A stretch of 20,218 nt of DNA from a virus: positions 1-20,218 of IMG/VR virus record IMGVR_UViG_3300049783_001672; one strand, written 5' to 3'. Position numbers and translations under genes: made by a program. Below, in pieces: positions 3,206-17,377 of this stretch (within the stretch, counting starts at the first letter, position 1; each line of letters opens with the position of its first letter). Under the pieces are notes generated by a model. It ran no database searches. It was not told where the DNA came from and was given only the letters and a program-made list of their open reading frames with translations.

Positions 3206-3234
3206 TTGCTTTCTTATTGAAATCATGATATGCT
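3206..3234 (+). promoter_or_regulatory. Sigma-70-like promoter for the repeat-gene cluster
   Basis: TTGCTT (3206-3211), 17-bp spacer, TATGCT (3229-3234) with an extended -10 TGA just before it. The ten bases ATGATATGCT spanning this -10 recur exactly at the -10 of the MoxR gene promoter (15528-15537). It lies in the short gap after the endolysin and 30 bp upstream of the chosen ATG at 3264. An in-frame ATG at 3225 lies inside the promoter and so is unlikely to be the start. Confidence 0.6.
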
Positions 3235-3263
3235 TGAAGTCTGCAAATTTATATGAGGGCTAC

Positions 3264-3692
3264 ATGCATATCTGTGATAACTGCAAAAGAGAAATAACAT
3301 ACTCAATTGCGCATATTCAAGAAGATAACCCGCCGTTTGATCTTGCCCAAACCATAGAAGAATGGAAGTGTGCTTGCGGGCTTCAGTCATTTAATGACAA
3401 TCCTTCCATGATTGATAATTATTACCTGCCTGCTCTCCATCGCATTGAACAGTGGCACAGGAATGGGAGTTTACATCGATGTAATAATCCTGCTTTTATT
3501 GATCCAAATTGGGAACATTATTTTTATAATGGTCTACTCCACAGGCACGATGGTCCGGCAAGCGTCCATAGGCAATCCGGCAAGCAAGCATGGGCGTGGC
3601 TTGGGTTGGAATGTGGTGACATTGATGAATTCCTTGAAACAAGCACCTTACCAGATGAAAATAAAATAATGTTGAAGTTGCAATATGTCTGA
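3264..3692 (+). CDS. Zinc-ribbon-like protein with two divergent HR.DGPA repeats
   Basis: A 142-residue protein. The ATG at 3264 is preceded by GAGGG at a 4-nt gap, better than the in-frame ATG at 3225, which sits in the promoter. N-terminal ICDNC...KCACG gives a CxxC plus CxC pattern, suggesting a small zinc-binding knuckle. It is followed by two degenerate units (EQWHRNGSLHR..NPA and YFYNGLLHRHDGPA) of the same repeat that fills the next nine genes. Its end, DENKIMLKLQYV, aligns with their C-terminal module (..NEQIIMWKLLQ). It is therefore a founder-like or divergent paralogue heading the cluster, fused to a metal-binding head. The 3' end overlaps the first array gene by 8 nt. A perfect 14-bp palindrome, TTACATCGATGTAA, lies at 3471-3484. 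Function unknown. Confidence 0.85.
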   Translation: MHICDNCKREITYSIAHIQEDNPPFDLAQTIEEWKCACGLQSFNDNPSMIDNYYLPALHRIEQWHRNGSLHRCNNPAFIDPNWEHYFYNGLLHRHDGPASVHRQSGKQAWAWLGLECGDIDEFLETSTLPDENKIMLKLQYV

Positions 3693-4032
3693 AACTATAA
3701 TGCACACAAATGTGTATGGAACTAAAGAATGGTATTTAAATGACCAACTACATCGAATAGATGGACCTGCTGCTGAATATGCAAATGGGGCGACACAATG
3801 GTATTTAAATGGTGAATTTCATCGAATAGATGGACCTGCTGTTGAAAATGCATATGGGTCCAAATACTGGTATTTGAATGGCGAGCGGCATCGAATAGAT
3901 GGACCTGCAATTGAACATGCAGATGGGCGTCGCCATTGGTATTTAAATGGCATAAATTATTCATTTGAAGAATACATAATTGCCGCCGAGTGGTCAAATG
4001 AACAAATAATCATGTGGAAATTGCTGCAATGA
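3685..4032 (+). CDS. WYLNG/HRIDGPA repeat protein 1 (type A leader)
   Basis: A 115-residue protein with leader MSETIMHTNVYGTKE, three repeat cores, a partial fourth unit (WYLNGINYSF) and the common C-terminal module EEYIIAAEWSNEQIIMWKLLQ. No signal peptide, membrane helix or catalytic motif is visible. The strong periodicity suggests a beta-hairpin-per-unit solenoid, as in MORN repeats, with variable residues clustered on one face. The ATG lies 8 nt inside the preceding gene. The start of the following gene is fused to this stop (ATGA), so expression is probably by translational coupling. The leader is nearly identical to those of array genes 4 and 7. Confidence 0.9.
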   Translation: MSETIMHTNVYGTKEWYLNDQLHRIDGPAAEYANGATQWYLNGEFHRIDGPAVENAYGSKYWYLNGERHRIDGPAIEHADGRRHWYLNGINYSFEEYIIAAEWSNEQIIMWKLLQ

Positions 4033-4538
4033 GCACAATAAGACCAATAAGACTAATAAAAAACGGACTTATAACAGATTCAAGTGGGGATCGCTGCTGG
4101 TATTTAAATGACAAATTGCATCGAATAAATGGACCTGCTGTTGAAAATGCATATGGGTCCAAATACTGGTATTTGAATGGCGCGCGGCATCGAATAGATG
4201 GACCCGCTATTGAATATGTAAATGGGGATAAGTGCTGGTATGTAAATGGTGAACTGCATCGAGTAGATGGACCTGCTGTTGAAAGTGCAACTGGAAATAA
4301 ACAATGGTATTTAAATGATAGTCTGCATCGAATAGATGGACCTGCAATTGAATATACAAATGGGGACAATCACTGGTATTTAAATGGCAACCCACATAGA
4401 ATAGATGGACCTGCTATTGAAAATGCAAATGGGGCTGAGCGTTGGTTTTTAAATGGCAAAGAGTATTCATTTGAAAAATACATTGTCAAAGCTAATTGGT
4501 CAGATGAGCAACTAATTATGTGGAAATTGCTGCAATGA
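4029..4538 (+). CDS. WYLNG/HRIDGPA repeat protein 2 (type B leader)
   Basis: A 169-residue protein from the ATG that overlaps the previous stop. A GTG 15 nt upstream is in frame but lies in the conserved 3' end of gene 1, so I did not use it. The leader MSTIRPIRLIKNGLITD is rich in basic residues and is followed by five repeat cores; the first is HRINGPA, an Asp-to-Asn change in the frame. The terminal module is KEYSFEKYIVKANWSDEQLIMWKLLQ. The DNA of the leader is the same as in gene 3, evidence of a recent duplication or conversion between neighbours. Function unknown. Confidence 0.9.
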   Translation: MSTIRPIRLIKNGLITDSSGDRCWYLNDKLHRINGPAVENAYGSKYWYLNGARHRIDGPAIEYVNGDKCWYVNGELHRVDGPAVESATGNKQWYLNDSLHRIDGPAIEYTNGDNHWYLNGNPHRIDGPAIENANGAERWFLNGKEYSFEKYIVKANWSDEQLIMWKLLQ

Positions 4539-4975
4539 GCACAATAAGACCAATAAGACTAATAAAAAACGGACTTATAACAGATACAGATGGGACCCTG
4601 CGCTGGTATTCGAATGGCAAGCGACATCGAATAGATGGACCTGCTGTTGAATATGTAAATGGGAACAATTACTGGTATTTAAATGGCGCGCGGCATCGAA
4701 TAGATGGACCTGCAATTGAATATGCAAATGGGTCTTATGGATGGTATTTACATGGCAAGCCACATAGAATAGATGGACCCGCCATTGAACATGCAAATGG
4801 GTCCAAATACTGGTATTTAAATGGCAAATTGCACCGAATAGACGGACCTGCTGTTGAATATACAAATGGGGGGTCTAGTTGGTATTTAAATGGCATAAAT
4901 TATTCATTTGCAAAATACATTGTCAAAGCTAATTGGGCAGATGAGCAACTAATTATGTGGAAATTGCTGCAATGA
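4535..4975 (+). CDS. WYLNG/HRIDGPA repeat protein 3 (type B leader)
   Basis: A 146-residue protein with four repeat cores. The leader MSTIRPIRLIKNGLITD is shared with gene 2, after which the two proteins diverge (TDGTLRWYSNG here). One unit has WYLHG instead of WYLNG. The C-terminal module YSFAKYIVKANWADEQLIMWKLLQ is closest to that of gene 2, so these two genes are sister copies with reshuffled middles. ATGA coupling is present on both sides. No recognisable catalytic residues. Confidence 0.9.
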   Translation: MSTIRPIRLIKNGLITDTDGTLRWYSNGKRHRIDGPAVEYVNGNNYWYLNGARHRIDGPAIEYANGSYGWYLHGKPHRIDGPAIEHANGSKYWYLNGKLHRIDGPAVEYTNGGSSWYLNGINYSFAKYIVKANWADEQLIMWKLLQ

Positions 4976-5526
4976 GTGAATCTATAATGCACACAAATGT
5001 GTATGGAACTAAAGAATGGCATTTGAATGGCAACACACATCGAGTAGATGGACCTGCGATTGAAAATGCAAATGGGGATAAAGAATGGTATTTAAATGGT
5101 GAACTGCATCGAGTAGATGGACCTGCGATTGAATATATAGATGGGTCCAACGGCTGGTATTTAAATGGCAAGCGGCATCGAATAGATGGACCTGCTGCTG
5201 AATTCCCCAATGGGGATAAGGGCTGGTATTTAAATGATAGTCTGCATCGAACAGACGGACCTGCTGCTGAATATGCAGATGGGGATAAAGAATGGTATTT
5301 AAATGATAAATTGCATCGAATAGATGGACCTGCTATTGAATATCCAAATGGAAATAAAGAATGGTATTTAAATGGCGAGCGGCACCGAATAGACGGACCT
5401 GCTGCTGAATATGCAAGTGGGTCTTATGAATGGTATTTGGATGGCAAAGAGTATTCATTTGACCAATACATAATTGTCGCTAAGTGGGCAGATGAACAAA
5501 TAATCATGTGGAAATTGCTGCAATGA
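4972..5526 (+). CDS. WYLNG/HRIDGPA repeat protein 4 (type A leader, longest copy)
   Basis: A 184-residue protein, the longest member, with six repeat cores. The leader MSESIMHTNVYGTKEWHLNG is of the gene 1 type and its DNA is nearly the same as at 3685. One core is HRTDGPA. Later units alternate SLHR, KLHR and ERHR, showing that the dipeptide before HR is a free position. The end is KEYSFDQYIIVAKWADEQIIMWKLLQ. The extra units relative to gene 1 show that copy number changes by whole 69-bp steps, as expected from slippage or unequal recombination that keeps the frame. Confidence 0.9.
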   Translation: MSESIMHTNVYGTKEWHLNGNTHRVDGPAIENANGDKEWYLNGELHRVDGPAIEYIDGSNGWYLNGKRHRIDGPAAEFPNGDKGWYLNDSLHRTDGPAAEYADGDKEWYLNDKLHRIDGPAIEYPNGNKEWYLNGERHRIDGPAAEYASGSYEWYLDGKEYSFDQYIIVAKWADEQIIMWKLLQ

Positions 5527-5885
5527 GTGAAATAAGACCAAGGCGAAACAAAATTATAACAGATGCAAGTGGGAATAAACAATGGTATTTAAATGACAAA
5601 TTGCATCGAATAGACGGACCTGCTATTGAACATGCAAATGGAAGCACCGGCTGGTATTTAAATGGCAGGCGGCATCGAATAGATGGACCCGCCATTAAAC
5701 ATGCAAATGGGTCTTATGGCTGGTTTTTAAATGGCAACCCACATAGAATAGATGGACCTGCTATTGAATATATAGATGGAAATAAAGAATGGTATTTAAA
5801 TGGCATAAATTATTCATTTGAAGAATACATAATTGCCGCCGAGTGGTCAAATGAACAAATAATCATGTGGAAATTGCTGCAATGA
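5523..5885 (+). CDS. WYLNG/HRIDGPA repeat protein 5
   Basis: A 120-residue protein with three cores. The leader MSEIRPRRNKIITDASG is a shortened, diverged type B. One unit reads AIKHANG instead of AIEHANG and another has WFLNG. The C-terminal module INYSFEEYIIAAEWSNEQIIMWKLLQ equals that of gene 1, and the DNA of that segment matches closely, so the end of this gene looks transferred from or to gene 1. ATGA junctions on both sides. Confidence 0.9.
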   Translation: MSEIRPRRNKIITDASGNKQWYLNDKLHRIDGPAIEHANGSTGWYLNGRRHRIDGPAIKHANGSYGWFLNGNPHRIDGPAIEYIDGNKEWYLNGINYSFEEYIIAAEWSNEQIIMWKLLQ

Positions 5886-6304
5886 GCAAAATAAAAAACG
5901 GACTTATAACAGATGAATATGGGGATAAGTGCTGGTATGTAAATGGTGAACTGCATCGAGTAGATGGACCTGCTGTTGAAAGTGCATCTGGAACTAAACA
6001 ATGGTATTTAAATGATAGTCTGCATCGAATAGATGGACCTGCCATTGAACATGCAAATGGGGACAATCACTGGTATTTAAATGACTTATTTCATCGAATA
6101 GATGGACCCGCCATTGAAAATGCAAATGGGGATCGCTTCTGGTGTTTGAATGGCAAACGACATCGAATAGATGGACCTGCTGTTGAATATAGAGATGGGG
6201 ATAAGCGTTGGTTTTTCAATGGGGCGGAGTATTCATTTGAAGCATACATAATTGCCGCTAATTGGTCAAATGAACAAATAATCATGTGGAAGTTGCTGCA
6301 ATGA
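5882..6304 (+). CDS. WYLNG/HRIDGPA repeat protein 6
   Basis: A 140-residue protein with four cores. The leader MSKIKNGLITD is the minimal type B, shared with gene 9. The first units (CWYVNGELHRVDGPAVES and NDSLHRIDGPAIE) match units 2-3 of gene 2 almost base for base, a clear exchange over about 1.7 kb. Frame substitutions include WCLNG and WFFNG. The module AEYSFEAYIIAANWSNEQIIMWKLLQ ends the protein. Function unknown. Confidence 0.9.
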   Translation: MSKIKNGLITDEYGDKCWYVNGELHRVDGPAVESASGTKQWYLNDSLHRIDGPAIEHANGDNHWYLNDLFHRIDGPAIENANGDRFWCLNGKRHRIDGPAVEYRDGDKRWFFNGAEYSFEAYIIAANWSNEQIIMWKLLQ

Positions 6305-6648
6305 GTGAATCTATAATGCACACAACTGCGCTTGGAACTAAACAATGGTATTTAAATGGCGAATTGCATCGAGTAGATGGACCTGCTGTCGAATATACAG
6401 ATGGGAGTCGCCACTGGTATTTAAATGGCGAATTGCATCGAGTAGATGGTCCTGCTGTTGAATATGCAAATGGGGATCGCTGCTGGTATTTAAATAACAG
6501 GCAGCACCGAATAGATGGACCTGCTGTTGAATTTGCAGATGGGTCCAAATACTGGTATTTAAATAGCAAAGAGTATTCATTTGCAAAATACATAATTGCT
6601 GCCGAGTGGTCAAATGAACAAATAATCATGTGGAAATTACTGCAATGA
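6301..6648 (+). CDS. WYLNG/HRIDGPA repeat protein 7 (type A leader)
   Basis: A 115-residue protein with three cores and leader MSESIMHTTALGTKQ, the third type A leader, again three genes after the previous one. Its second and third units are identical or nearly so in DNA to units of gene 8 (for example CWYLNNRQHRIDGPAVE at both loci), indicating recent copying. The module is KEYSFAKYIIAAEWSNEQIIMWKLLQ with one frame change, NSKEYS. Confidence 0.9.
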   Translation: MSESIMHTTALGTKQWYLNGELHRVDGPAVEYTDGSRHWYLNGELHRVDGPAVEYANGDRCWYLNNRQHRIDGPAVEFADGSKYWYLNSKEYSFAKYIIAAEWSNEQIIMWKLLQ

Positions 6649-7076
6649 GCGCAATAAGCACAATAAAAAACGGACTTATAACAGATAAATATGGGGGCTG
6701 GCGCTGGTATTTAAATGGCGAATTGCATCGAGTAGATGGTCCTGCTGTTGAATATGCAAATGGGAGTCGCCACTGGTATTTAAATGGCGAATTGCATCGA
6801 GTAGATGGTCCTGCTGTTGAATATGCAATTGGAACTAAACAATGGTTTTTGAATGGCAAAGTGCATCGAATAGATGCACCTGCTGTTGAATATGCAAATG
6901 GGGATCGCTGCTGGTATTTAAATAACAGGCAGCACCGAATAGATGGACCTGCTGTTGAATATGCAAGTGGGTCTTATGAATGGTATTTAAATGACGTAAG
7001 GTATTCATTTAAAGAATACATAATTGCCGCCAAATGGTCTGATGACCAAATAATCATGTGGAAATTGCTGCAATGA
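6645..7076 (+). CDS. WYLNG/HRIDGPA repeat protein 8
   Basis: A 143-residue protein with four cores and leader MSAISTIKNGLITD (type B). The first two units are near-identical to each other (GELHRVDGPAVEYA), a local tandem duplication. One core is HRIDAPA, the only Gly-to-Ala change in the HRxDGPA core that I noticed. The C-terminal module VRYSFKEYIIAAKWSDDQIIMWKLLQ is nearest to gene 9. Confidence 0.9.
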   Translation: MSAISTIKNGLITDKYGGWRWYLNGELHRVDGPAVEYANGSRHWYLNGELHRVDGPAVEYAIGTKQWFLNGKVHRIDAPAVEYANGDRCWYLNNRQHRIDGPAVEYASGSYEWYLNDVRYSFKEYIIAAKWSDDQIIMWKLLQ

Positions 7077-7357
7077 GCAAAATAAAAAACGGACTTATAA
7101 CAGATGTATATGGGCACCGCTTCTGGTATTTAAATGACAAATTGCATCGAATAGACGGACCTGCTCTTGAAAATGCAAATGGGTCCAAATACTGGTGTTT
7201 GAAAGACAATGCACATAGAATAGATGGACCTGCTGTTGAACTTGTGAGTGGGGGTGATTACTGGTATTTGGATGGCAAAGAGTATTCATTTAAAGAATAC
7301 ATAATTGCCGCCAAATGGTCTGATGACCAAATAATCATGTGGAAAATAGAAAACTAA
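7073..7357 (+). CDS. WYLNG/HRIDGPA repeat protein 9 (shortest, last copy)
   Basis: A 94-residue protein, two cores only, with leader MSKIKNGLITD. The end differs from all the others: ...IIMWKIEN instead of ...IIMWKLLQ. The ATGA coupling sequence is therefore lost exactly where the array stops, and a new promoter begins 10 bp after the stop. Units show more drift (WCLKDNAHR, VELVSGG), consistent with a terminal copy that recombines less. Function unknown. Confidence 0.9.
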   Translation: MSKIKNGLITDVYGHRFWYLNDKLHRIDGPALENANGSKYWCLKDNAHRIDGPAVELVSGGDYWYLDGKEYSFKEYIIAAKWSDDQIIMWKIEN

Positions 7358-7395
7358 TACTAAGTATTGACAAAACAATTACTTACTGATATACT
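7356..7395 (+). promoter_or_regulatory. Strong sigma-70-like promoter with 13-bp dyad at the -35
   Basis: TTGACA (7367-7372), 17-bp spacer, TATACT (7390-7395): a near-consensus housekeeping promoter. It drives the gene at 7424, whose ATG has AAGGA 6 nt upstream, and probably also the beta-barrel gene and the DNA polymerase. A perfect dyad, AATACT-A-AGTATT (7356-7368), overlaps the first bases of the -35 and the stop of repeat gene 9, and could be an operator. TATAAATC at 7401-7408 also resembles a T4 late promoter box but is one base off and very close to the ATG. Confidence 0.75.
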
Positions 7396-7423
7396 ACAAA
7401 TATAAATCATACAAGGACAATAT

Positions 7424-7687
7424 ATGACCAATACCACATCCTACGATCCTGCCCAAATTAAGAAACTTGAAGACTACTTTGCAGCCGGAATTCTGATTGA
7501 AGAAGAGCGAGCTACATTAAATGATGGCCTAAAGGACTTGACTGCGGCTATAGCCGAGGAAATGAATATCAAGCCGGGGCTTCTGTCAAAGGCGCTGAAG
7601 CTTGCAGTAAAAGCATCATTCACCCAGCAAGAAACCGATTTTGAAACTGTTGGAGATATTCTTAGGGCGGTCAAGCGAGACCTTTGA
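7424..7687 (+). CDS. Small helical protein, possibly DsbA-like DNA-binding factor
   Basis: An 87-residue protein with a clear Shine-Dalgarno AAGGA and the strong promoter upstream. It is predicted to be mostly alpha-helical: KKLEDYFAAGI, EERATLNDGLKDLTAAIAEEM, PGLLSKALKLAVKAS, FETVGDILRAVKRD. The overall length and the order of helices (a central DLTAAIAEEMNIKPGLLSKAL stretch, then Phe/Glu-rich text) recall the T4 DsbA double-strand-binding protein family of about 89 residues, but I see no diagnostic motif, so treat that as a suggestion. Its position just before the DNA polymerase supports a nucleic-acid role. Its stop overlaps the next start (TGATG). A 12-bp palindrome, CGGCTATAGCCG, lies at 7545-7556. 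Confidence 0.8.
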   Translation: MTNTTSYDPAQIKKLEDYFAAGILIEEERATLNDGLKDLTAAIAEEMNIKPGLLSKALKLAVKASFTQQETDFETVGDILRAVKRDL

Positions 7688-7917
7688 TGACAGCGAATAC
7701 GTTGCCTCTATGTTACGACAAGCTTGACCGGGAAGTTAGGGTAGGCGATTATGTCGCCTACCCTATCACCGCCAGCATTCTAGGCGTCGGAAAAGTTATT
7801 AAAATAAGTAAAATACAACTTCATATCGAAGTGGCATGGTGTGATGTCAGAAAACGACATGACCAAGTTATTAAGATTGGCGATGCCGACATAATTATGT
7901 ATAAGTTGAAACAATAA
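7687..7917 (+). CDS. Small SH3/KOW-like beta-barrel protein
   Basis: A 76-residue protein. ATG 7687 overlaps the upstream stop; an in-frame TTG one codon earlier is less likely. The stretch VRVGDYVAYP...GVGKVIKISKIQLHIEVAW...HDQVIKI has the alternating hydrophobic pattern and the VGDxVxYP...G.V..I signature of small SH3/KOW/Tudor-type barrels, common in phage accessory proteins and often nucleic-acid or protein binding. The C-terminus ADIIMYKLKQ closely matches the C-terminal end of the repeat-protein family (EQIIMWKLLQ). A perfect 12-bp hairpin lies within the VGDYVAYP codons. It is followed by the AGGAG that serves DNA polymerase. Confidence 0.85.
   Translation: MTANTLPLCYDKLDREVRVGDYVAYPITASILGVGKVIKISKIQLHIEVAWCDVRKRHDQVIKIGDADIIMYKLKQ
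7737..7765 (+). promoter_or_regulatory. Perfect 12-bp intragenic stem-loop
   Basis: TAGGGTAGGCGA (7737-7748), loop TTATG, TCGCCTACCCTA (7754-7765). It lies 50 nt after the ATG of the beta-barrel gene, with no following T-tract, so it is not a standard intrinsic terminator. One of a set of gene-start hairpins in this window with unrelated sequences. Confidence 0.8.
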
Positions 7918-7945
7918 CAGGAGAATCAATATTTACATTGATGCA

Positions 7946-9550
7946 ATGCATGACAAAAATCGAGATATAATTAATATTGTCGAACGTGATGCCAGTGGCA
8001 AACGAGTCTTTCTCGAAAAGAACGCAGAATATGGATTTTACTACGCTGATCCAAAAGGCAAATTCACCAGCATTCACGGCGATAAGCTAAGCAGATTTCA
8101 GACAGACAGCAAGCGATTATTCAACAAAGAAAAAAAGATTCATGGATACAAGAAGATTTTTGAAAGTGATATGAATCTTATCTTCAAGTGTCTTGCTGAT
8201 AATTATAAAGATGCTGATTCTGCTGTATTAAATGTTGGATTTTTCGATATTGAAGTCGAAAAAGTTAAAGATCGCGGATGGGCACCAGTAAGTGATCCTT
8301 TTGCCAGAATAACCGCAATTAGCTTTCATCCAAAATGGCTCAATCAAACTATTTGTTTGGTGGTCGCCCCGGATGAAATGACATTTGAAGAAGCAACAGA
8401 AATATGTGACAGCATTGAAAATTGTTTCCTTATGGATGATGAAGTGCAAATGCTGCATGCATTCATTGAATTGATTGACGATGCGGATATTCTAAGTGGC
8501 TGGAACTCCGAGGGGTTTGATATTCCATATCTTGTCAATAGAATTGCAAGAGTTTTAGGGAAATCGTATCTGCGGAATCTTTGTCTGTGGAATCAGTATC
8601 CGGAACGTCGAATGGTTATGAAATTTGATAAAGAAGAAGAGACATTTGATCTTGTCGGGCGCGTCCATTTGGATTACATGGCTCTATACAAGAAGTATAC
8701 ATACAGTGTAATGCATTCATACAGTCTAGATAGTATTTCTGCACATGAATTGAAATCACAAAAGGTTCCATATGATGGCACTTTAGATCAGTTATACAAC
8801 AACGACTTTAAGAAATTCATTCTATACAGCATTCAAGATACTGCATTGCTTCGCCAATTAGACGATAAATTGCAGTATATTGAACTTGTCAACATGATCG
8901 CACATGCAAACACCGTCAAGATGCAAACTGTCTTGGGATCAGTCGCTCAGATTGATCAGGCGATAGCCAATGAGGCGCATGGGCGGGGCTTGATCGTGCC
9001 TGACAAGCGTAGGGGGCAAATATCTCCGAAGGCTGCTGGCGCGTATGTGGCGCATCCTAAGGTGGGGCTACATGATTGGGCTGCAAGCATCGACCTTAGT
9101 TCCTTGTATCCATCGATCCTCAGAGCATGTAATATGAGTCCGGAAACCATTGTGGCGCAAGTCAGGCAAGATTTAACCGCCGCAATGATTGAATCATTCC
9201 GCACGCCGAGAACAAAAGAAGACAATCATGTCCCCAGAGCATGGGAAGGTAAATTTGCATGCGTTGAATATGATTTGATCATGGCGCAAGACAAAGAAAC
9301 TATCCTGCATCTTGATTATGACGATGGGCGCGTCGAAGAATTGACCGGGGCACAAATCTACCGAATGATATTTGCTGAGAACCGACCATGGATTATGTCT
9401 AGTAATTGCACAATTTTCACCACTGAAAAAGAGGGAGTCGTCCCATCATTACTTTCACGTTGGTATTTTGAGCGACAGGAATTACAGGCAAAAAAAGGAA
9501 AATGGAGTGATTTGGTCGAAGGCATAACTATTCCCGACAGATTATTATGA
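7946..9550 (+). CDS. 43A: DNA polymerase family B, N-terminal fragment (exonuclease plus palm motif A), gp43A-type
   Basis: A 534-residue protein, the first half of the replicative polymerase. Seen: 3'-5' exonuclease motifs Exo I FFDIEV (D101, E103), Exo II WNSEGFDIP (about 187-192) and Exo III YSIQDTALL (about 292-298), then polymerase motif A SIDLSSLYPSIL (about 380-391) with the first catalytic Asp. It ends in the first fingers helix (LLSRWYFERQELQAKK...). Motifs B and C are in the next gene, so both products must associate. This split in the fingers region resembles the split gp43 known from some T4-like phages. The listed start is the first ATG. AGGAG (7919-7923) is 22 nt from it but 7 nt from an in-frame ATT at 7931, so the true product may be five residues longer. 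Confidence 0.95.
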   Translation: MHDKNRDIINIVERDASGKRVFLEKNAEYGFYYADPKGKFTSIHGDKLSRFQTDSKRLFNKEKKIHGYKKIFESDMNLIFKCLADNYKDADSAVLNVGFFDIEVEKVKDRGWAPVSDPFARITAISFHPKWLNQTICLVVAPDEMTFEEATEICDSIENCFLMDDEVQMLHAFIELIDDADILSGWNSEGFDIPYLVNRIARVLGKSYLRNLCLWNQYPERRMVMKFDKEEETFDLVGRVHLDYMALYKKYTYSVMHSYSLDSISAHELKSQKVPYDGTLDQLYNNDFKKFILYSIQDTALLRQLDDKLQYIELVNMIAHANTVKMQTVLGSVAQIDQAIANEAHGRGLIVPDKRRGQISPKAAGAYVAHPKVGLHDWAASIDLSSLYPSILRACNMSPETIVAQVRQDLTAAMIESFRTPRTKEDNHVPRAWEGKFACVEYDLIMAQDKETILHLDYDDGRVEELTGAQIYRMIFAENRPWIMSSNCTIFTTEKEGVVPSLLSRWYFERQELQAKKGKWSDLVEGITIPDRLL

Positions 9551-9567
9551 CATTGAAAGGAATTTAA

Positions 9568-10782
9568 TTGAAGACAGATATTGACTTTGCCAGATTAGAC
9601 CAGATATTTGCGAAAGGAACAAAAGAGGAATTATTGTCTTTTTGTTCAGAAAATGATCTGGAAATAAAAGATGGTAAAATTGTGGCAATTGATCCAGTTG
9701 CGGCAAAAGCAAATGAATCCTTTTGGGACAAACGCCAATTAGTCAGAAAGATTTTGCTCAACAGCTTATATGGCGCTCTATTGAACGCAGGAAGTAGGTT
9801 CTTCGATTTCCGACTTGGCCAGAGTACGACTTTGACTGGACGTGGGATTGATCAGCATATGGCTGCTGGCGTAAATGAAATTATCACTGGCGTCTATCAA
9901 CATGACGGCGCTGCAATCCTGTACTGCGACACAGATTCTTCATATTTCACTGCATACCCAACATATAAGCCCATGATTGACTCGGGCGAAATTAATTGGG
10001 ATGTGGAAACTATCATTACATTATATGACGAAATATGCCGTCAGATCAATGATACTTTTGTCGATCATATGGCAAGGAAGCATCATTGCCCGACAAAAAA
10101 TGGCGCGATTATTAAAGCTGCCAGAGAAGTTGTTGCGGAAAAAACTCTGTTCATCAAAAAGAAAAAATATGCTCTTTTAGTTATTGATGACGGCGGGAAA
10201 CGAAAAGACGTTGGCGGCAAGCGTGGAAAACTGAAGGTAACAGGGCTAGATATTAAACGCAGCGATACTCCTGCATTTGTCCAGAACTTTCTTGAAGAAA
10301 TTGTCATGATGACATTGACTGGTATTTCCAAAGAAGAAATCATCCAACGAATTATCAAATTCAGGACTGAATTTCGAGCAATGCCCTCATGGCACAAGGG
10401 AACTCCAAAACAGGTCAACAACCTAACCAGTAAAACAAAGACATGGCGCAAGACCGGCAAATGTGGAGTCGGACACGTTCTTGCTGCTATCAATTACAAC
10501 GAACTACTGAAACTAAACAACGACACAAACAGTATGCCTATTGTGGACAGTATGAAAACTATTGTTTGTAAACTAAAAGACAATCAGTTTGGGATGACAA
10601 GTATTGGTATCCCCACAGACGAAAGTAGAGTTCCGGACTGGTTCAAGGCATTGCCATTTGATGATAATTTGATGGAAGACACCCTGATCGACAAAAAATT
10701 AGACAATGTTATTGGTTGTCTTGATTGGGATATTAGTTCTTCTAATATAAAAACAACATTTAATGATCTATTCGGCTTTTAG
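9568..10782 (+). CDS. 43B: DNA polymerase family B, C-terminal fragment (fingers, palm motifs B/C, thumb), gp43B-type
   Basis: A 404-residue protein. Motif B is RQLVRKILLNSLYGALLNAG (K61, N65, Y68), motif C is LYCDTDSSY (D121, D123), and a KKKYALL (KxY) element follows, then the thumb. The first ~55 residues are a charged segment (KGTKEELLSFCSENDLEIKDGK) that would sit in the fingers. The C-terminus FNDLFGF resembles the clamp-binding peptide at the end of T4/RB69 gp43, which fits the gp45-type clamp encoded next. Start: TTG 9568 with AAAGGA 6 nt upstream. The 17-nt gap from the first fragment and the change of frame mean it is independently initiated, not a frameshift product. Together the halves (938 residues) are slightly longer than T4 gp43 (898). 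No homing endonuclease or intein motif is present at the break. Confidence 0.95.
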   Translation: MKTDIDFARLDQIFAKGTKEELLSFCSENDLEIKDGKIVAIDPVAAKANESFWDKRQLVRKILLNSLYGALLNAGSRFFDFRLGQSTTLTGRGIDQHMAAGVNEIITGVYQHDGAAILYCDTDSSYFTAYPTYKPMIDSGEINWDVETIITLYDEICRQINDTFVDHMARKHHCPTKNGAIIKAAREVVAEKTLFIKKKKYALLVIDDGGKRKDVGGKRGKLKVTGLDIKRSDTPAFVQNFLEEIVMMTLTGISKEEIIQRIIKFRTEFRAMPSWHKGTPKQVNNLTSKTKTWRKTGKCGVGHVLAAINYNELLKLNNDTNSMPIVDSMKTIVCKLKDNQFGMTSIGIPTDESRVPDWFKALPFDDNLMEDTLIDKKLDNVIGCLDWDISSSNIKTTFNDLFGF

Positions 10783-10785
10783 CCC

Positions 10786-10814
10786 TTGCTATTCCCTCCA
10801 TAATACTATATAAT
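10786..10814 (+). promoter_or_regulatory. Sigma-70-like promoter for the clamp operon
   Basis: TTGCTA (10786-10791), 17-bp spacer, TATAAT (10809-10814), directly after the polymerase stop. A short GGCT-TTT-AGCC hairpin immediately upstream (around 10775-10785) is too weak to be called a terminator. AAGG precedes the clamp ATG at 10839. Confidence 0.65.
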
Positions 10815-10838
10815 TAAACTTATAATAAGGAAACATTA

Positions 10839-11591
10839 ATGGAACCAAAAACAGTATTACTTGACGTTCTCAAGCATACAGCCGGACTAGGCATGATCGA
10901 GGCGATTAAGATCACTGGCACCGACGAATCCACTCAACTTGATGCAATTGATCCAGAAAAAACAATGGTCTTAACTGCAACTCTCCATGAGCCTGTCCCT
11001 GAATTTAAAGGGGAATTTGGATTTGGCAATCTGGGGTATTTGAGTAGTCTCACAAAACTCTCAAATTACAGGGCAGACGATGCAACCGTTTCTGTTATCA
11101 GGCAGAAAATTGAAAACGAAGAAGTGCCAACTTCAATTGTTTTTAAAGACGGAAGCGGGAGTAAAGACCAATATCGTTGTATGTCAGCAGCTATCGTTGA
11201 ACAGGTCTTGAAATTACAAGGCAAGAAGTTCAAGGGCGCAAATTGGAAAATTACAATTGATCCCACCATACAGAAAGTCAATCAGCTTTCAGAAGTCGCC
11301 AGCATTTATTCTGGCATTGAGCCTACATTTTCAGTAACAGTCGAGGATGGCAATCTAGTCTTCGGAGTGGGCAACGCACAAGGGGCGCTGACAGGCAGAC
11401 GAATTTTTGCAACAGATGTCACCGGAAAACTTGACGCGGTATGGAGTTGGAAGCTATCAACCGTGCTGAGCATTTTAAAATTGGGCGTAACTGGAACATG
11501 TGTGATGAAATTCAGCGAAGGGGTTTGTCAGATTGATATCGATTCAGGTATTGCGCTTTACAGCTACATTCTTCCGGCTCTGATGAATTAA
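10839..11591 (+). CDS. 45: DNA polymerase sliding clamp (T4 gp45-like)
   Basis: A 250-residue protein, close in size to T4 gp45 (228). It lacks short catalytic motifs, as expected. The assignment rests on overall pattern: two halves with LTKLSNYRADDATVSVIRQK and VNQLSEVASIYSGIEPTFSVTVEDGNLVFGVGNAQG, then a C-terminal strand-rich segment ending SEGVCQIDIDSGIALYSYILPALMN, comparable to the gp45 C-terminal domain. It follows the polymerase, whose tail looks like a clamp-binding peptide. The trimeric ring encircles DNA and tethers the polymerase; in T4 it also activates late transcription through gp55/gp33. The gp44/gp62 loader genes are not in this window. Its TAA overlaps the next ATG by one base. 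Confidence 0.85.
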   Translation: MEPKTVLLDVLKHTAGLGMIEAIKITGTDESTQLDAIDPEKTMVLTATLHEPVPEFKGEFGFGNLGYLSSLTKLSNYRADDATVSVIRQKIENEEVPTSIVFKDGSGSKDQYRCMSAAIVEQVLKLQGKKFKGANWKITIDPTIQKVNQLSEVASIYSGIEPTFSVTVEDGNLVFGVGNAQGALTGRRIFATDVTGKLDAVWSWKLSTVLSILKLGVTGTCVMKFSEGVCQIDIDSGIALYSYILPALMN

Positions 11592-11806
11592 TGGTCAGAA
11601 AAATTCGAGTGATCGATGACCATCAAAAACCTCCCATGACGGAAAATGAATTCAGATTAAAAATGCTTGAAACGCTTTCTGCAATTGATTGGAAATTATG
11701 GGAACTACTTAAACGTTCAGGATTTGAAGAAAAAACTCTGAGCGCAACAGGAACCCCCTCAACCCAAGATTTTAAATCTATAATTATAGATGAAGATATT
11801 ATCTAA
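11591..11806 (+). CDS. Small hypothetical protein coupled to the clamp gene
   Basis: A 71-residue protein. The ATG overlaps the clamp stop (TAATG), so it is probably translated by termination-reinitiation. A basic N-terminus (MVRKIRVIDDHQK), one amphipathic helix (ENEFRLKMLETLSAIDWKLWELLKRSG), then a disordered linker and an acidic-hydrophobic tail (FKSIIIDEDII). The hydrophobic-acidic C-terminus next to a clamp gene makes a clamp-binding role possible, since T4 gp33 and gp55 bind gp45 by such tails, but the sequence is not recognisably gp33. Function unknown. Confidence 0.75.
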   Translation: MVRKIRVIDDHQKPPMTENEFRLKMLETLSAIDWKLWELLKRSGFEEKTLSATGTPSTQDFKSIIIDEDII

Positions 11807-11839
11807 CTGGCAATCATGCCATCCCAAGGAACTGCAAAC

Positions 11840-12151
11840 ATGAAGACTTCAACTACCTTAGCCGACCTTAAATTCGATCTTCTGAAGATAACAGAACCCT
11901 ATGACGGGCTTCTTGAGGTCACGAATACCCACCCTGTCAGAAAATTATTTGTTTCTTATCTTAGGGACTTGCAGGCGGATAAAATGATCTATGATTTCTC
12001 GATTGACATTGAAAGCAAGACTGACACCATCACATTCAACGTGAATGTCAGATTGCAAAATGGGCGCGCTCCTAAAAAATTACGAATCCACGTCAGGACT
12101 TTTATCGGATCATCGTGGAATCCACGTCGATTGTCCTCCCATCTTCGTTGA
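11840..12151 (+). CDS. Conserved-looking phage hypothetical protein
   Basis: A 103-residue protein from ATG 11840 (AAGGA 9 nt upstream). An in-frame ATG at 11816 has no ribosome binding site and would add eight residues. Composition: helix-rich N-terminal half (LADLKFDLLKITEPYDGLLEV...RKLFVSYLRDLQADK), then a two-strand pattern (IYDFSIDIES, TITFNVNVRLQNGRAPKKLRIHV) and a basic tail (WNPRRLSSHLR). I do not recognise the family. Its 3' end carries the first of three operator-like elements (12139-12149) and a direct repeat GAATCCACGTC (about 12084 and 12117). Confidence 0.75.
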   Translation: MKTSTTLADLKFDLLKITEPYDGLLEVTNTHPVRKLFVSYLRDLQADKMIYDFSIDIESKTDTITFNVNVRLQNGRAPKKLRIHVRTFIGSSWNPRRLSSHLR

Positions 12152-12209
12152 TTTCAATTGACGCCAATGAACGAAGATGGTATGATAGAAAAATCACCAT
12201 CTTCGTTCA
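12139..12209 (+). promoter_or_regulatory. Promoter flanked by three inverted/direct operator-like elements
   Basis: Promoter: TTGACG (12158-12163), 17-bp spacer, TATGAT (12181-12186). Element A CCATCTTCGTT (12139-12149) is upstream of the -35. Element B, its reverse complement within TGAACGAAGATGGT (12168-12181), fills the spacer and touches the -10. Element C ACCATCTTCGTTCA (12196-12209) lies at the expected transcription start. B and C form a perfect 14-bp inverted repeat with a 14-nt gap; A and B form an alternative 11-bp one. Three copies in alternating orientation around one promoter look like repressor operators. Alternatively B/C could fold as a cruciform. AAGGA follows at 12213. Confidence 0.75.
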
Positions 12210-12223
12210 ATCAAGGATATATC

Positions 12224-12592
12224 ATGACGCTCTCCCCCACTCCGCTAAAAACCAATTCCAAAGAATTTTGGCAAAATATTGTATTCATCACCGGAAAACC
12301 TATCTCTCGCGAGCAATATGGTTTTGGCGTATCAGTCATTCTGGCAATTGGAACCGTTCTTGTTGCCGCCGCGCCAAGCGTTACATTTGCCACGATTATT
12401 CATATTATGATGATTGTTGGTATAGTGAATATCGCTGAACTGCGCGCCATTGTTCTCAAGATCAACAGACTATGGGCATGGACAATTATAATCGGCTCAA
12501 TGTATCCTGTCGTTGCCGTCATTCCTTTGCTTTTCTTTTGCTTGGCGCGTCGTGCATCTGATGGAAAAATCACCCTTCTAAACAGGAAATAA
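12224..12592 (+). CDS. Small integral membrane protein
   Basis: A 122-residue protein from ATG 12224, which has AAGGA 6 nt upstream. An in-frame TTG at 12158 overlaps the promoter -35 and is not a credible start. Three hydrophobic segments: GFGVSVILAIGTVLVAAA, TFATIIHIMMIVGIVNI and WTIIIGSMYPVVAVIPLLFF, with basic ends (RRASDGK...NRK), consistent with an inner-membrane protein. The FITGKPISREQY start and INRLW...PLLFFCL text loosely recall DUF805-type inner membrane proteins; a holin or superinfection-exclusion role is equally possible. It is the only gene here under the three-element promoter, then reads into peptide deformylase. Confidence 0.75.
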   Translation: MTLSPTPLKTNSKEFWQNIVFITGKPISREQYGFGVSVILAIGTVLVAAAPSVTFATIIHIMMIVGIVNIAELRAIVLKINRLWAWTIIIGSMYPVVAVIPLLFFCLARRASDGKITLLNRK

Positions 12593-12595
12593 TTT

Positions 12596-13120
12596 ATGAA
12601 TACTTATGATTTGTCATCCCACCAATTGGTTATTACTCCAAATCCAATTCTGGAATACCCAACTAGCCAATTCAAAAACGGCGTTCAGTCATATCGCGAC
12701 GCATTATTCAACCATATGTGCCATGTGATGACATCAAACCACGGCGTCGGTCTTTCTGCCAATCAAATCGGGCTGGATGCGTCACTGTTTATTATGATCT
12801 TGGATGGAAAAGCGACTATGATAATTAATCCAATCATTACTAAAATAAGCGACGAAACTGCATCATTGACAGAAGGTTGTTTGAGTGATCCGGGGTTGCG
12901 CATCGCCGTCAAACGACCAACGTCCATCGAAGTCCGATTTGAGGATATAAACGGGTATATGTCTGAGGGCAAAATGGACGGCATAACCGCCAGAATTTTC
13001 CTTCATGAATTTGATCATCTCAATGGAATTATGATTTCTGATCGGACCAGTAAATTAAGATTGACAATGGCTAAAAAGAAACGTGATAAAAAAAGGAGAC
13101 TAAATGAGTCTATGGAATAA
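12596..13120 (+). CDS. def: Peptide deformylase
   Basis: A 174-residue protein, normal length for the family. All three active-site motifs are present: GVGLSANQIG (50-59; motif I GxGLAAxQ with Ala replaced by Ser), EGCLS (93-97, metal ligand C95) and HEFDHLNG (137-144; metal ligands H137 and H141, catalytic E138). The enzyme removes the formyl group from nascent N-terminal Met at the ribosome. Phage-encoded deformylases are known from marine T4-like cyanophages and other phages, usually as short versions; this one has only a short basic tail (KKKRDKKRRLNESME). AGGAAA lies upstream of the ATG. Its 3' end overlaps the next gene by 17 nt. Confidence 0.95.
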   Translation: MNTYDLSSHQLVITPNPILEYPTSQFKNGVQSYRDALFNHMCHVMTSNHGVGLSANQIGLDASLFIMILDGKATMIINPIITKISDETASLTEGCLSDPGLRIAVKRPTSIEVRFEDINGYMSEGKMDGITARIFLHEFDHLNGIMISDRTSKLRLTMAKKKRDKKRRLNESME

Positions 13121-13391
13121 GCTATTTGGTTCGGCGGCGGCGGATCGCCCAGAAACCAACAGAGAAAACCTTACGAAAAAAGAGGCAACTGATTTAAAAC
13201 AGCCATGGGTTAATGTAACTAAATTCAACGTCATTGACAGTAAAGACCCATCTAACATTGAAATTGAGTTGGACTGGAATATCTTTTTTATTGACGAATT
13301 AAAGTCAGCAGGATATAACGGTAAAGAAGAAGAAGATATCATCGAGCAATGGTTTCATGATCTTTGTCGCGGGATTGTTGATGACATATGA
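13104..13391 (+). CDS. Conserved T4-like small protein of unknown function
   Basis: A 95-residue protein with a strong AAAGGAG 4-9 nt upstream. The N-terminal MSLWNKLFGS amphipathic start and a charged linker are followed by PWVNVTKF...IEIELDWNIFFIDELKSAGYNG and EDIIEQWFHDLCRGIVDD. The pattern (PWVxV...ELDWN..F...L...GY.G..ED.I..QWF..L) is one I associate with small proteins near replication genes in T4-like cyanophages, from memory only. Acidic C-terminal half; possibly a protein-interaction module. The stop overlaps the RNase H start (ATGA), so the two are translationally coupled. Confidence 0.8.
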   Translation: MSLWNKLFGSAAADRPETNRENLTKKEATDLKQPWVNVTKFNVIDSKDPSNIEIELDWNIFFIDELKSAGYNGKEEEDIIEQWFHDLCRGIVDDI

Positions 13392-14380
13392 AGTATGTAA
13401 TTATTGACGCGACGCATCTTTACTTCCGGGCGAAGCATGTTGTTCGGGGCGACGATATTGACATGAAGATTGGTATGGCAATGCAGATCATGTTTTCCAG
13501 TATCAATAAGGTCTGGCGTGATTTTGGAGCCGACCATCTTGTGTGTTGCTTTGAAGGCGGATCGTGGAGAAAAGATTTCTATGGACCATACAAGAGAAAT
13601 CGGGCTGAACGAACAGCAGGAATGAGCATGCGGGAATTAGAGGAAGACAAGCAATTTCTGGCATCTTTCAATGATTTTCGAGATTTTCTAAGTTCCCGGT
13701 CGAATGCCACTGTATTGGCTGCGCCCGGCGCAGAAGCCGATGACTGCATTGCCCGATGGATTCAGACGCATTCAGAGGATGAACATGTCATCATCAGTGC
13801 AGATTCTGATTTTTACCAATTACTAACTCCCAACGTAACTCAATACAATGGCATAACACAAGAGCATATTACTCTTGATGGAATTTATGACGCGAAGGGA
13901 TCATTGGTTATTGACAAGAAAACCAAAGCGCCAAAATCTATTGGCGATCCTGAATGGCTTCTTTTTGAAAAGTGTATTCGCGGGGATAAGGCAGATAATA
14001 TTTTTTCTGCTTATCCCGGAGCCAGAAAAAAAGGAACCAAAAATAAAACAGGGATGCAAGAGGCGTTTGATGACCGAAACAAACAAGGATATCACTGGAA
14101 TAACCTTATGTTGGTTCGGTGGATTGACATTAATAATGAAGAGCATGTTGTCAGAAACGATTATATCAGAAATAAAAAATTAATTGACCTGACAGAACAG
14201 CCGGAAAATGTATTGCAGTCTATTGATATGGTTATAAATAATGCTATAACAGCAGATAAAGTTTCTCAGTGCGGGCTTCATTTCTTGCGATTTTGTGGAA
14301 AATATAATCTTGTGCGCCTTGGTGAGCAATGCGCTGATCATTCCAAATATTTATCTGCTGCATATACAAGGGACAAATAA
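13388..14380 (+). CDS. rnh: RNase H / 5'-3' exonuclease of the FEN-1 family (T4 rnh-like)
   Basis: A 330-residue protein; T4 RNase H is 305. Seen: N-terminal VIIDATHLYFRA (metal-binding D7), CFEGGSWRKDFYGPYKRNR (the conserved basic segment after the second Asp/Glu), EADDCIARW (paired acidic residues in the first metal site), SADSDFYQLL (second metal site) and a helix-3-turn-helix-like GDKADNIFSAYPGARKKGTKN that binds duplex DNA. It removes lagging-strand RNA primers plus adjacent DNA. It is transcribed with the deformylase block and coupled to the preceding small gene. The C-terminal 100 residues lack known motifs and, by analogy with T4, would contact the single-strand-binding protein. Confidence 0.93.
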   Translation: MKYVIIDATHLYFRAKHVVRGDDIDMKIGMAMQIMFSSINKVWRDFGADHLVCCFEGGSWRKDFYGPYKRNRAERTAGMSMRELEEDKQFLASFNDFRDFLSSRSNATVLAAPGAEADDCIARWIQTHSEDEHVIISADSDFYQLLTPNVTQYNGITQEHITLDGIYDAKGSLVIDKKTKAPKSIGDPEWLLFEKCIRGDKADNIFSAYPGARKKGTKNKTGMQEAFDDRNKQGYHWNNLMLVRWIDINNEEHVVRNDYIRNKKLIDLTEQPENVLQSIDMVINNAITADKVSQCGLHFLRFCGKYNLVRLGEQCADHSKYLSAAYTRDK

Positions 14381-14842
14381 ATGATGGAACTTCACTGCAT
14401 TTTGCCGAATAAATATTGGATTGTCAAGGATTCAGGCAAACCAATAGGATCGCTTCGTGCTGCAACATCTGAGAATTATGATTTCTATCAATCATCTTCT
14501 GGTATCACCACGCAAGTAAATGTCGAGTATATCGCAGAATTTTTTACGCACATGGACCAGATTGATGATCCCGAAGTAAACATGAGTATCAATGGTTTTA
14601 TCACAAATTCCCCCGCGCCGTGCCTTATTGACATCAGGCACGATAATACTATATACAAAAAATCTTTGAACGCAAACCAACCATATCATGTTGCTGGATA
14701 TTTTGCAATCAAATATCCGAGCCAGTGGGGGATTTTACGAAGTCCAAGATTGGCAACCATTCTAAATAACGAATGTATTGGACCATTCAGGAAAGAATCT
14801 GATGCTAAAATTGCAATCTCTAACAGACGTAATTCCAGATAA
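14381..14842 (+). CDS. Hypothetical protein
   Basis: A 153-residue protein beginning immediately after the RNase H stop; AAGGGA lies about 8 nt upstream. Beta-rich text (KYWIVKDSGKPIGSLRAATSENYDFY; CLIDIRHDNTIYKKSL; YHVAGYFAIKYPSQWGILRSPRLATIL) with an alternating polar/hydrophobic pattern. No signal peptide, membrane helix or catalytic motif recognised. A 7-bp inverted repeat (CGTGCCT...AGGCACG) occurs mid-gene at about 14619-14642. Its last 41 nt overlap the next gene, which is read in another frame. Function unknown. Confidence 0.8.
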   Translation: MMELHCILPNKYWIVKDSGKPIGSLRAATSENYDFYQSSSGITTQVNVEYIAEFFTHMDQIDDPEVNMSINGFITNSPAPCLIDIRHDNTIYKKSLNANQPYHVAGYFAIKYPSQWGILRSPRLATILNNECIGPFRKESDAKIAISNRRNSR

Positions 14843-15269
14843 TCTTTCATATGATGATTTCAGAGAGGCGCTGACTCAGTATCTCACGTCTCCTGAAATC
14901 ATTGACTATTTGCTGAAATTAGAAACAATTATTTGCATGTCATACAAAACTACATCATATCGCAATGATTCTTTGTGGGACACCATACAAAACAAAAAAT
15001 TAAAAATATTCACCAAAAATAAGTCATATGTTCTGACATCACAATCCGCGCACGTCATGAAAGAATTATTCTATCATGAAACATTATCTCTGGAAAAACA
15101 AATCACATCTGGAGAATTGATTTTGCTTGGGCGCGCGAAATCACCATATATCATTCAGCCTGCAAATTTTATAATTCACCATCCAGAAATTGTTTTGTTC
15201 AATCCTGAACATATTATAATGAGCAAAATGTTGGACAGCCCGCATGAGTGGATTGCGACATTATCCTGA
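14802..15269 (+). CDS. Hypothetical protein with IIMxK-type C-terminal segment
   Basis: A 155-residue protein from ATG 14802, with AGGAAAG about 8 nt upstream; an in-frame TTG at 14778 lacks a site. N-terminal helices (DNLSYDDFREALTQYL; PEIIDYLLKLETII) are followed by a strand-rich region (SLEKQITSGELILLGRAKSPYIIQPANFIIHHPEIVLF). NPEHIIMSKM near the end resembles the C-terminal E..IIM.KL of the repeat proteins and several other small genes here, but another dozen residues follow. Not recognised. Confidence 0.8.
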   Translation: MLKLQSLTDVIPDNLSYDDFREALTQYLTSPEIIDYLLKLETIICMSYKTTSYRNDSLWDTIQNKKLKIFTKNKSYVLTSQSAHVMKELFYHETLSLEKQITSGELILLGRAKSPYIIQPANFIIHHPEIVLFNPEHIIMSKMLDSPHEWIATLS

Positions 15270-15277
15270 TTATCTGA

Positions 15278-15306
15278 TTGACACCCGCTATAATCCATGT
15301 TAAACT
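15278..15306 (+). promoter_or_regulatory. Sigma-70-like promoter
   Basis: TTGACA (15278-15283), 17-bp spacer, TAAACT (15301-15306), in the 63-bp gap before the 53-residue gene at 15333. A TATAAT at 15289-15294 lies inside the spacer but has no -35 at the right distance. ATAATCC (15290-15296) is the reverse complement of GGATTAT at the Shine-Dalgarno (15321-15327). Confidence 0.65.
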
Positions 15307-15332
15307 GATATTCTAGCAAAGGATTATGATAA

Positions 15333-15494
15333 ATGAACAATTTCCTAACCGCCGAAACTGTGACCGTCGATGCCGCCACACTTGAGCGAGCAAAGGATTG
15401 GTATGCCACATTTACTAATGGCCAATGTGGCAATATTCCAGACGATTTTGAAATTGTTGCTATTTTTGACATGGTTCGAAAAACATCAAAATAA
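15333..15494 (+). CDS. Small 53-residue protein
   Basis: A short complete frame, MNNFLTAETVTVDAATLERA... to ...IFDMVRKTSK, with AAAGGA 9 nt upstream of the ATG and its own promoter. It fills the otherwise empty stretch between the gene ending at 15269 and the MoxR promoter, which supports its reality. The text is a single helix-forming domain (VDAATLERAKDWYATF), a short loop (NGQCGNIPDD) and a second helix (FEIVAIFDMVRK). A 9-bp inverted repeat, TGCCACATT...AATGTGGCA (15404-15432), lies within the coding region. Function unknown. Confidence 0.75.
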   Translation: MNNFLTAETVTVDAATLERAKDWYATFTNGQCGNIPDDFEIVAIFDMVRKTSK

Positions 15495-15508
15495 CAACAA
15501 ATAATTGC

Positions 15509-15537
15509 TTGCCTTGTATCATACAGTATGATATGCT
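15509..15537 (+). promoter_or_regulatory. MoxR-gene promoter containing a 17-bp operator-like dyad
   Basis: TTGCCT (15509-15514), 17-bp spacer, TATGCT (15532-15537). The spacer holds a perfect dyad TATCATAC-A-GTATGATA (15517-15533) with 8-bp half-sites around a single central base, a geometry typical of helix-turn-helix repressor operators. The ten bases ATGATATGCT at the -10 are shared with the promoter at 3206. Confidence 0.7.
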
Positions 15538-15575
15538 ATGATCACCATAACCTTAACCCACAAGTAGGACAATTA

Positions 15576-17325: not shown

Positions 17326-17350
17326 CTTAATTACCAATTCATGTTATAAT
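17314..17350 (+). promoter_or_regulatory. VWA-gene promoter with 17-bp dyad over the -35
   Basis: TTGACT (17322-17327), 17-bp spacer, TATAAT (17345-17350): near consensus. A perfect dyad TTAAGTCA-T-TGACTTAA (17314-17330), again 8+1+8 but a different sequence from the MoxR dyad, covers the -35 and the end of the previous gene. GAGGA precedes the ATG at 17378. Confidence 0.8.
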
Positions 17351-17377
17351 CAATCATCATCATCTTATGAGGAATAA

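Follow-up and report, generated by a model that had tools for sequence, protein, structure and literature searches.

The MORN unit is described in passages of PMC7725318 as 23 residues long, with LxY at positions 5 to 7 and YEGEW at positions 13 to 17 lining a longitudinal groove; in MORN4, the groove holds the myosin partner of the protein. MORN genes are present in multiple copies in pandoraviruses, as stated in parts of PMC13390436 and PMC6418002. Here, we analyzed a virus fragment of 20,218 nucleotides (nt) from IMG/VR (record IMGVR_UViG_3300049783_001672), referred to in full as the window, which is a piece of a large T4-like phage as judged by its Pfam content. It contains a tandem array of nine genes made of 23-residue repeats. 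With moderate confidence, we propose that the array encodes coexpressed, groove-binding MORN-like proteins that have diversified in specificity and share a C-terminal helix for docking or dimerization.

Organization and predicted fold of the array

Nine intact open reading frames (ORFs) span positions 3685 to 7357. The GTG starts of the program-made ORF list fall within the preceding gene; ATG starts, which are the first coordinates in the list below, were used. Together, the genes contain 34 full units, every one exactly 23 residues long, with a consensus of about WYLNGELHRIDGPAVEYANGSKY. After the full units, each gene continues with one half unit and a tail, YSF..YI...W(S/A)(N/D)(E/D)Q(I/L)IMWKLLQ, which differs in gene 9 (MWKIEN). 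The N-terminal leader is of type A (SE[TS]IMHT) in genes 1, 4, and 7 and of type B in the other six (IKNGLITD in five and a diverged NKIITD in gene 5). The original prediction of a nine-gene array with 34 repeats and a threefold A-B-B leader order was thus borne out. The array genes and the gene directly upstream, named the founder, are as follows.

3225-3692, plus strand: founder gene, 155 amino acids with degenerate HRxxGPA units and the tail ENKIMLKLQYV; in relatives, orthologs precede gp43
3685-4032, plus strand: array gene 1, leader A, 3 units, tail IIMWKLLQ, start overlapping the founder stop by 8 nt
4029-4538, plus strand: array gene 2, leader B, 5 units
4535-4975, plus strand: array gene 3, leader B, 4 units
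4972-5526, plus strand: array gene 4, leader A, 6 units, protein modeled
5523-5885, plus strand: array gene 5, diverged leader B, 3 units, tail DNA identical to that of gene 1
5882-6304, plus strand: array gene 6, leader B, 4 units
6301-6648, plus strand: array gene 7, leader A, 3 units, first unit with 4 differences from contig L027 (see below)
6645-7076, plus strand: array gene 8, leader B, 4 units
7073-7357, plus strand: array gene 9, leader B, 2 units, tail ending MWKIEN

At each of the eight joints between consecutive array genes, the stop and start codons overlap as ATGA. These overlaps suggest that the nine proteins are made together, as a repertoire and not as a switched archive.

An AlphaFold2 model of the gene 4 protein, built with 44 sequences, reached a predicted local distance difference test score (pLDDT) of 94.5 and a predicted template modeling score (pTM) of 0.77. 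It consisted of short strands and two C-terminal helices (residues 163-169 and 174-183). The best PDB matches found by Foldseek were MORN1 (6t68, E 6e-8), radial-spoke MORN proteins, and junctophilin. The structural comparison VIA gave Z 9.5 across 163 residues at a root mean square deviation (rmsd) of 5.6, and solved MORN proteins were at the top of both structural lists. The loose global superposition (rmsd 5-6) was expected because the repeats are twisted. The array proteins are predicted to have the MORN-repeat fold, an elongated grooved sheet. With the ANG turns aligned and one turn two residues shorter, MORN positions 5, 7, 13, 15, and 17 correspond to phage positions 15, 17, 21, 23, and 2. 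We infer that these phage positions form a groove-facing, alternate-residue variable face.

Variable positions and selection

A rigid frame with five varying positions per unit had been predicted. The frame was confirmed, but about nine positions vary in the window units, with a per-position entropy above 1.5 bits at positions 6, 7, 15, 17, 18, 19, 21, 22, and 23. In seven arrays, the mean entropy of the alternate positions 15, 17, 21, 23, and 2 was 1.70 to 2.76 bits, versus 0.00 to 1.08 bits at positions 14, 16, 22, 1, and 3. Per-position entropies of the window and of the other arrays showed a rank correlation of 0.85.

The ratio of nonsynonymous to synonymous polymorphism (pN/pS) was calculated by the Nei-Gojobori method, for which the pattern finder took 33 of the 34 window units. 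Position classes derived from the variability of the window itself (variable class, 0.94; positions 18-19, 3.8) were circular and were dropped. The count was therefore redone with classes from other phages and leave-one-out classes. Ranked by diversity in other phages, the variable class comprised positions 2, 6, 7, 15, 17, 18, 21, and 23, whichever array was omitted. Bootstrap ranges are 5-95% ranges of 60 resamplings of units (15 for array L009).

The variable-class pN/pS of the window was 1.04 (0.94-1.14). Arrays of other phages, given by contig (G) or locus (L), yielded 1.24 (1.18-1.42) for G010, 3.36 (2.76-4.21) for G012, 1.46 (1.22-1.74) for L009, and 1.31 (1.08-1.53) for L011; values without bootstrap were 1.03 for G005 and 1.13 for G004. 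The conserved-class pN/pS was 0.00 to 0.19 across the seven arrays with leave-one-out classes (0.19 in the window). When nonsynonymous changes at variable positions were related to synonymous changes at conserved positions, the ratio was 1.12 to 2.35 in six arrays and 0.86 in G004. The frame is strongly constrained in all arrays. We read the variable face of the window as being under no detectable constraint and that of four other arrays as showing mild to clear diversification.

These data agree with the predicted modular scaffold, since frame positions had a pN/pS of 0.06 to 0.19 and variable positions of about 1, and the predicted selection on the array fits genes that are all kept intact. 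Neutral drift at the variable positions, raised as a counterargument, is compatible with the window alone and is contradicted by the four bootstrapped arrays (1.24-3.36).

Recombination, relatives, and genomic setting

The chance of a perfect spacing of three A leaders in nine places is 3/84 (hand count), and in a permutation test, leader similarity had a period of three (p = 0.010). Such a period was absent outside the leaders, with p = 0.95 for tails, 0.87 for first units, and 0.45 for last units. The longest exact DNA matches were detected between genes 1 and 5 (99 bp), 7 and 8 (82, 69, and 61 bp), 2 and 6 (68 bp), and 8 and 9 (64 bp), and one match of 60 bp paired genes 5 and 8. A further 68-bp match, covering the end of one gene and the start of the next, was shared by the gene 1/2 and gene 2/3 junctions. 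Because the period of three is confined to the leaders and other gene pairs are linked by long exact matches, we consider the array to be a recombination patchwork; the matches are as expected if units had undergone unequal recombination and conversion. The leader order had been taken to point to amplification of a three-gene unit, in which an A-B-B block was copied twice; later gene conversion could have wiped the trace of such copying. Given the distribution of periodicity and exact matches, this origin was not supported, and we consider it quite improbable.

The founder encodes a 155-residue protein with degenerate units, ending in KIMLKLQYV. Among 29 loci examined, five further contigs (L028, L036, L037, L038, and L059) carried a founder ortholog on the upstream side of gp43. 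L027, also among the 29 loci, is the same phage and begins inside the array, and the other 23 loci, many of them short on that side, gave no pattern match. The five orthologs were 25-32% identical to the founder, with the H-R, G-P-A, and K..Y columns conserved in the alignment. Two of the contigs, L036 and L038, represent sister phages (81.6% and 89.0% DNA identity on the two flanks). In L036, the founder is accompanied by three tandem array genes; in L038, it is directly joined to the downstream sequence, and the junction lies within the tail/stop sequence CTACAATATGGATAATAGC. This difference indicates that an entire array was gained or lost at a joint, in either direction. Checked for a single pseudogenized copy, the relatives with a match were instead found to carry an intact single founder or arrays.

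The sister phages bear on an alternative in which recombination makes the array grow and shrink like an accordion, while the proteins need only fold and their surface positions drift neutrally. The gain or loss of a whole array at a repeated tail/stop sequence fits this alternative, as do the variable-position ratios of the window, G005, and G004 (1.04, 1.03, and 1.13). However, none of the nine genes is a broken copy, the conserved class of the window is constrained (0.19), the ratios and bootstrap ranges of G010, G012, L009, and L011 lie above 1, and arrays are retained in many contigs. We regard such an accordion as rather unlikely.

A protein search revealed relatives of the array proteins in 11 of 14 chosen contigs, of which six had been picked for holding such genes, one via another window gene, and seven by polymerase similarity; four of these last seven had a match. 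Repeat ORFs were counted with a simple ORF caller run on separate pieces, yielding 72 of 237 ORFs in G005 (128 kb), 38 of 220 in G004, 16 of 449 in G012, 13 of 93 in G010, and 8 of 36 in G007. About 30% of the called ORFs of the single contig G005 (loci L109-L115) thus carry repeats. In L009, at least 16 repeat ORFs follow each other in a row. The cultured phage Atu_ph07 also has relatives of these genes. Leaders and tails were similar inside one phage and different among phages.

In bacterial and archaeal genomes, a strict pattern detected 130 related stretches, and 76 loci were kept, 54 of them with a single repeat ORF. Duganella isolates (L217 and L253) and a Janthinobacterium (L264) have several HREDGPA-repeat genes near each other; those of Duganella share the tail EFNQWLMKKNLN. 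The genes of all these isolates may be of prophage or host origin. Among 10 long repeat ORFs, one had a fused methyltransferase domain (L263, a bacterial metagenome-assembled genome), and the others were uninformative. In the open-licence literature, we did not find HREDGPA, DUF6745, FKLRWG, or MORN repeat combined with jumbo phage, although a prior description elsewhere is possible; this literature also yielded nothing on MORN-repeat gene duplication in giant viruses and nothing relevant on jumbo-phage gene-family expansion.

No near DNA match to the window was present among 50,697 phage records. The closest contig, L027, was 99.84% identical across 12,216 bases (window positions 6244-18459, ungapped). 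L027 is an independent contig ending within array gene 6, showing that the array is not peculiar to one contig. Of the 19 sites that differ, 13 fall in the region 16718-17325, four in unit 1 of gene 7, and two in the clamp gene. Three of the four gene 7 differences lie within a 17-bp tract of L027 that is identical to unit 3 of the same gene; these differences may be an assembly error, as L027 ends inside the array.

Pfam searches with the window proteins detected DUF6267, a cytidylyltransferase, an amidase with an SH3 domain, a family B polymerase, a deformylase, a 5'-3' exonuclease, an AAA ATPase, and a VWA/metallopeptidase protein. The clamp-like protein was 37.7% identical to counterparts from Pseudomonas phages such as PA5oct. 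The neighbors of the array (a dsbA-like gene, gp43, and the clamp gene) place it in a replication-gene region, away from tail genes. This setting does not support the surface binding that was also suggested originally. An extracellular or surface-binding repertoire, used for adhesion or as a receptor, would be in line with a general likeness of repeat diversity to adhesins, but the leaders are short with no signal peptide evident by eye, and the neighboring genes also argue against it, making it very improbable. Three further genes are mentioned below.

7687-7917, plus strand: small conserved gene before gp43, C terminus DADIIMYKLKQ
16718-17065, plus strand: small repeat-free protein, C terminus DDFFMFKLSQ, similar to the array tail
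17062-17325, plus strand: tandem paralog of the preceding protein, C terminus EEHAILLKLSH

The paralog pair at 16718-17325 lies between the genes for the AAA ATPase and the VWA protein. It accounts for 13 of the 19 differences, with seven amino-acid changes, and is a second variable spot between the window and L027. The gp43-type polymerase (7946-10782) is encoded in two frames (7946-9550 and 9568-10782), whereas all 15 relatives that were checked have it in one uninterrupted frame. L027 has the same split, since there is no gap in that region; it may represent a split gene, a programmed frameshift, or a lesion. Directly 3' of the array and 5' of the dsbA-like gene and gp43, a sigma-70-like promoter match was noted at 7367-7395 (TTGACA, spacing 17, TATACT; 11 of 12 positions), in a scan that as a whole was at chance level.

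Shared C-terminal tail, proposed role, and known systems

A strict tail pattern matched 3 of 26 non-repeat ORFs in the window, compared to a mean of 0.03 after shuffling of the last 12 residues. The corresponding counts (shuffled means) were 6 of 247 (0.18) in G008, 2 of 207 (0.27) in G006, 1 of 80 (0.04) in G010, 1 of 28 (0.10) in G007, and 20 of 459 (0.40) in G015. A wider tail test also listed window ORF 18676-18966, which the strict pattern excluded. In an exact DNA scan of the viral collection, MFKLxWG-stop was found in 27 stretches and the permuted control FMLKxWG-stop in five; 26 of 31 MFKLxWG-stop frames had at least 60 residues, while all five control frames were six-residue stubs. 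In G015 (a 277-kb IMG/VR contig, loci L192-L205), a KL-type C-terminal motif, mostly F....DA.LFKL.W(G), was present in 22 of 459 ORFs (2.7 expected), and after removal of the last 25 residues these proteins showed no mutual similarity (BLAST, E 1e-3). The same trimmed comparison related three orthologs across G006, G008, and G010. Models of the array protein and of the family of the 17062-17325 protein both place the tail in a C-terminal helix; for the latter, a G008 relative was modeled with ten sequences at moderate confidence (pLDDT 81.5). The tail likeness between the array and unrelated small proteins may be due to homology, convergence, or a docking signal.

A tail common to all array members would also suit a homotypic scaffold, in which pairing of the C-terminal helices builds a mesh or a particle-internal layer and variety tunes assembly instead of targets. 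According to passages of PMC7725318, TbMORN1 and its homologs dimerize tail-to-tail and form meshes. We consider a scaffold of this kind unlikely: the variation is on alternate residues assigned to the groove, which is the partner side in MORN4, and the locus is among replication genes, not virion genes.

The proposed repertoire of groove-binding proteins would work as follows. Each protein consists of an N-terminal leader, two to six full units and a half unit predicted to form a grooved sheet, and a C-terminal tail, modeled as two helices, that is almost identical in all nine. The variable positions would line the groove and set binding specificity, and exchange of genes and units by recombination, at repeats and at tail/stop/start joints, would supply variety. 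The common helix would dock all members to one partner or pair members together. The nine coproduced proteins would work within infected cells, where they would have several targets from the host or from rival phages, plausibly defense proteins; a decoy or anti-defense use of the array is possible.

Several points weigh against this proposal. The groove register is our own assignment, and a PDB sequence search with the 44-member profile gave no match up to E = 10, so that the fold is seen by structure only. The pN/pS of the window is statistically neutral, and pairwise counts in a recombining family are not independent. Finally, strict tail counts were at chance in G012 (1 of 433), G004 (1 of 182), G005 (0 of 165), and a 49-kb piece of Phosso (0 of 66), which limits the tail link to some phages.

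As a tentative extension, large phages may keep recombination-fed MORN-like libraries, in which a variable sheet selects the target and a C-terminal helix of the DAxMFKLxWG type, present also in many small phage proteins that are otherwise unrelated, tags members for one phage partner or compartment, as a standing and diversifying adaptor repertoire against host defenses or rivals. If the proposed repertoire is real, one scaffold would underlie diversified sets of binders in several phage lineages, as a natural equivalent of designed repeat-protein libraries, and the binder targets could reveal unknown host defenses. A C-terminal helix common to unrelated small phage proteins would provide a handle on many uncharacterized phage genes. 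Part of a long-read study reports MORN repeats as 37 times more frequent in reads than in assemblies (PMC9238414); given this excess, such arrays may be undercounted.

Searches for known systems gave few leads. The first member had no match to PADLOC anti-phage defense models at E 1, and across the 44 members, weak, scattered matches to five families were each confined to a single member (best E 0.0013). In NCBIfam, the first member had no match near the cut-off, and the 44-member tally comprised nine families (best E 0.00029). PHROGs matches were mostly to short families of unknown function. No reverse transcriptase gene, as expected near a target of a diversity-generating retroelement, was detected among 10 ORFs scanned in this 20-kb fragment. 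Pfam DUF6745 (PF20530) shares one HRxDGPA-like stretch with the array proteins, and 43 of 44 members matched it at E <=0.1; the full-length domain of 206 positions was not found, the gene 4 protein scoring 29.4 bits (cut-off 27) with a best stretch of about 20 of 206 positions (64-80).

The G-box of CPAP/Sas-4 (Tcp10_C) resembles the array proteins in structure (Z 8.6), being one exposed beta-sheet made up of short repeats, and 11 of 44 members matched Pfam Tcp10_C, but it is one domain of a centriole protein without an array. MORN and uncharacterized families of giant viruses (Mimivirus, Megavirus, and Pandoravirus) are also similar, with a Foldseek match to Mimivirus R871 (7e-17); these are long proteins of viruses of protists. 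Bacterial HREDGPA-repeat genes (Magnetovibrio, Beijerinckia, Ancylobacter, and Duganella) have the 23-residue unit in common with the phage array but differ in mostly comprising one repeat ORF per locus and in their tails, and some may be prophage or binning errors.

Regarding MORN itself, the 23-residue period was found in 34 of 34 units, and stacked beta-hairpins in an elongated grooved sheet are predicted. The signature GxG ... G ... YEGEW was not found, the classic MORN model was absent among the 18 families listed, and of the 44 members, only five matched MORN_2 (best E 0.0012). The array proteins are therefore described as having a MORN-like fold and are not counted as canonical members. 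They share the 23-residue period and, as predicted, the beta-hairpin units and the single elongated grooved sheet with MORN1, MORN4, junctophilin, and radial spoke head proteins. In contrast to MORN proteins, the phage units have HRxDGPA and WYxNG in place of GxG and YEGEW, their groove positions vary where MORN proteins have conserved aromatics, and the proteins are short and encoded in tandem gene arrays, with common C-terminal helices.

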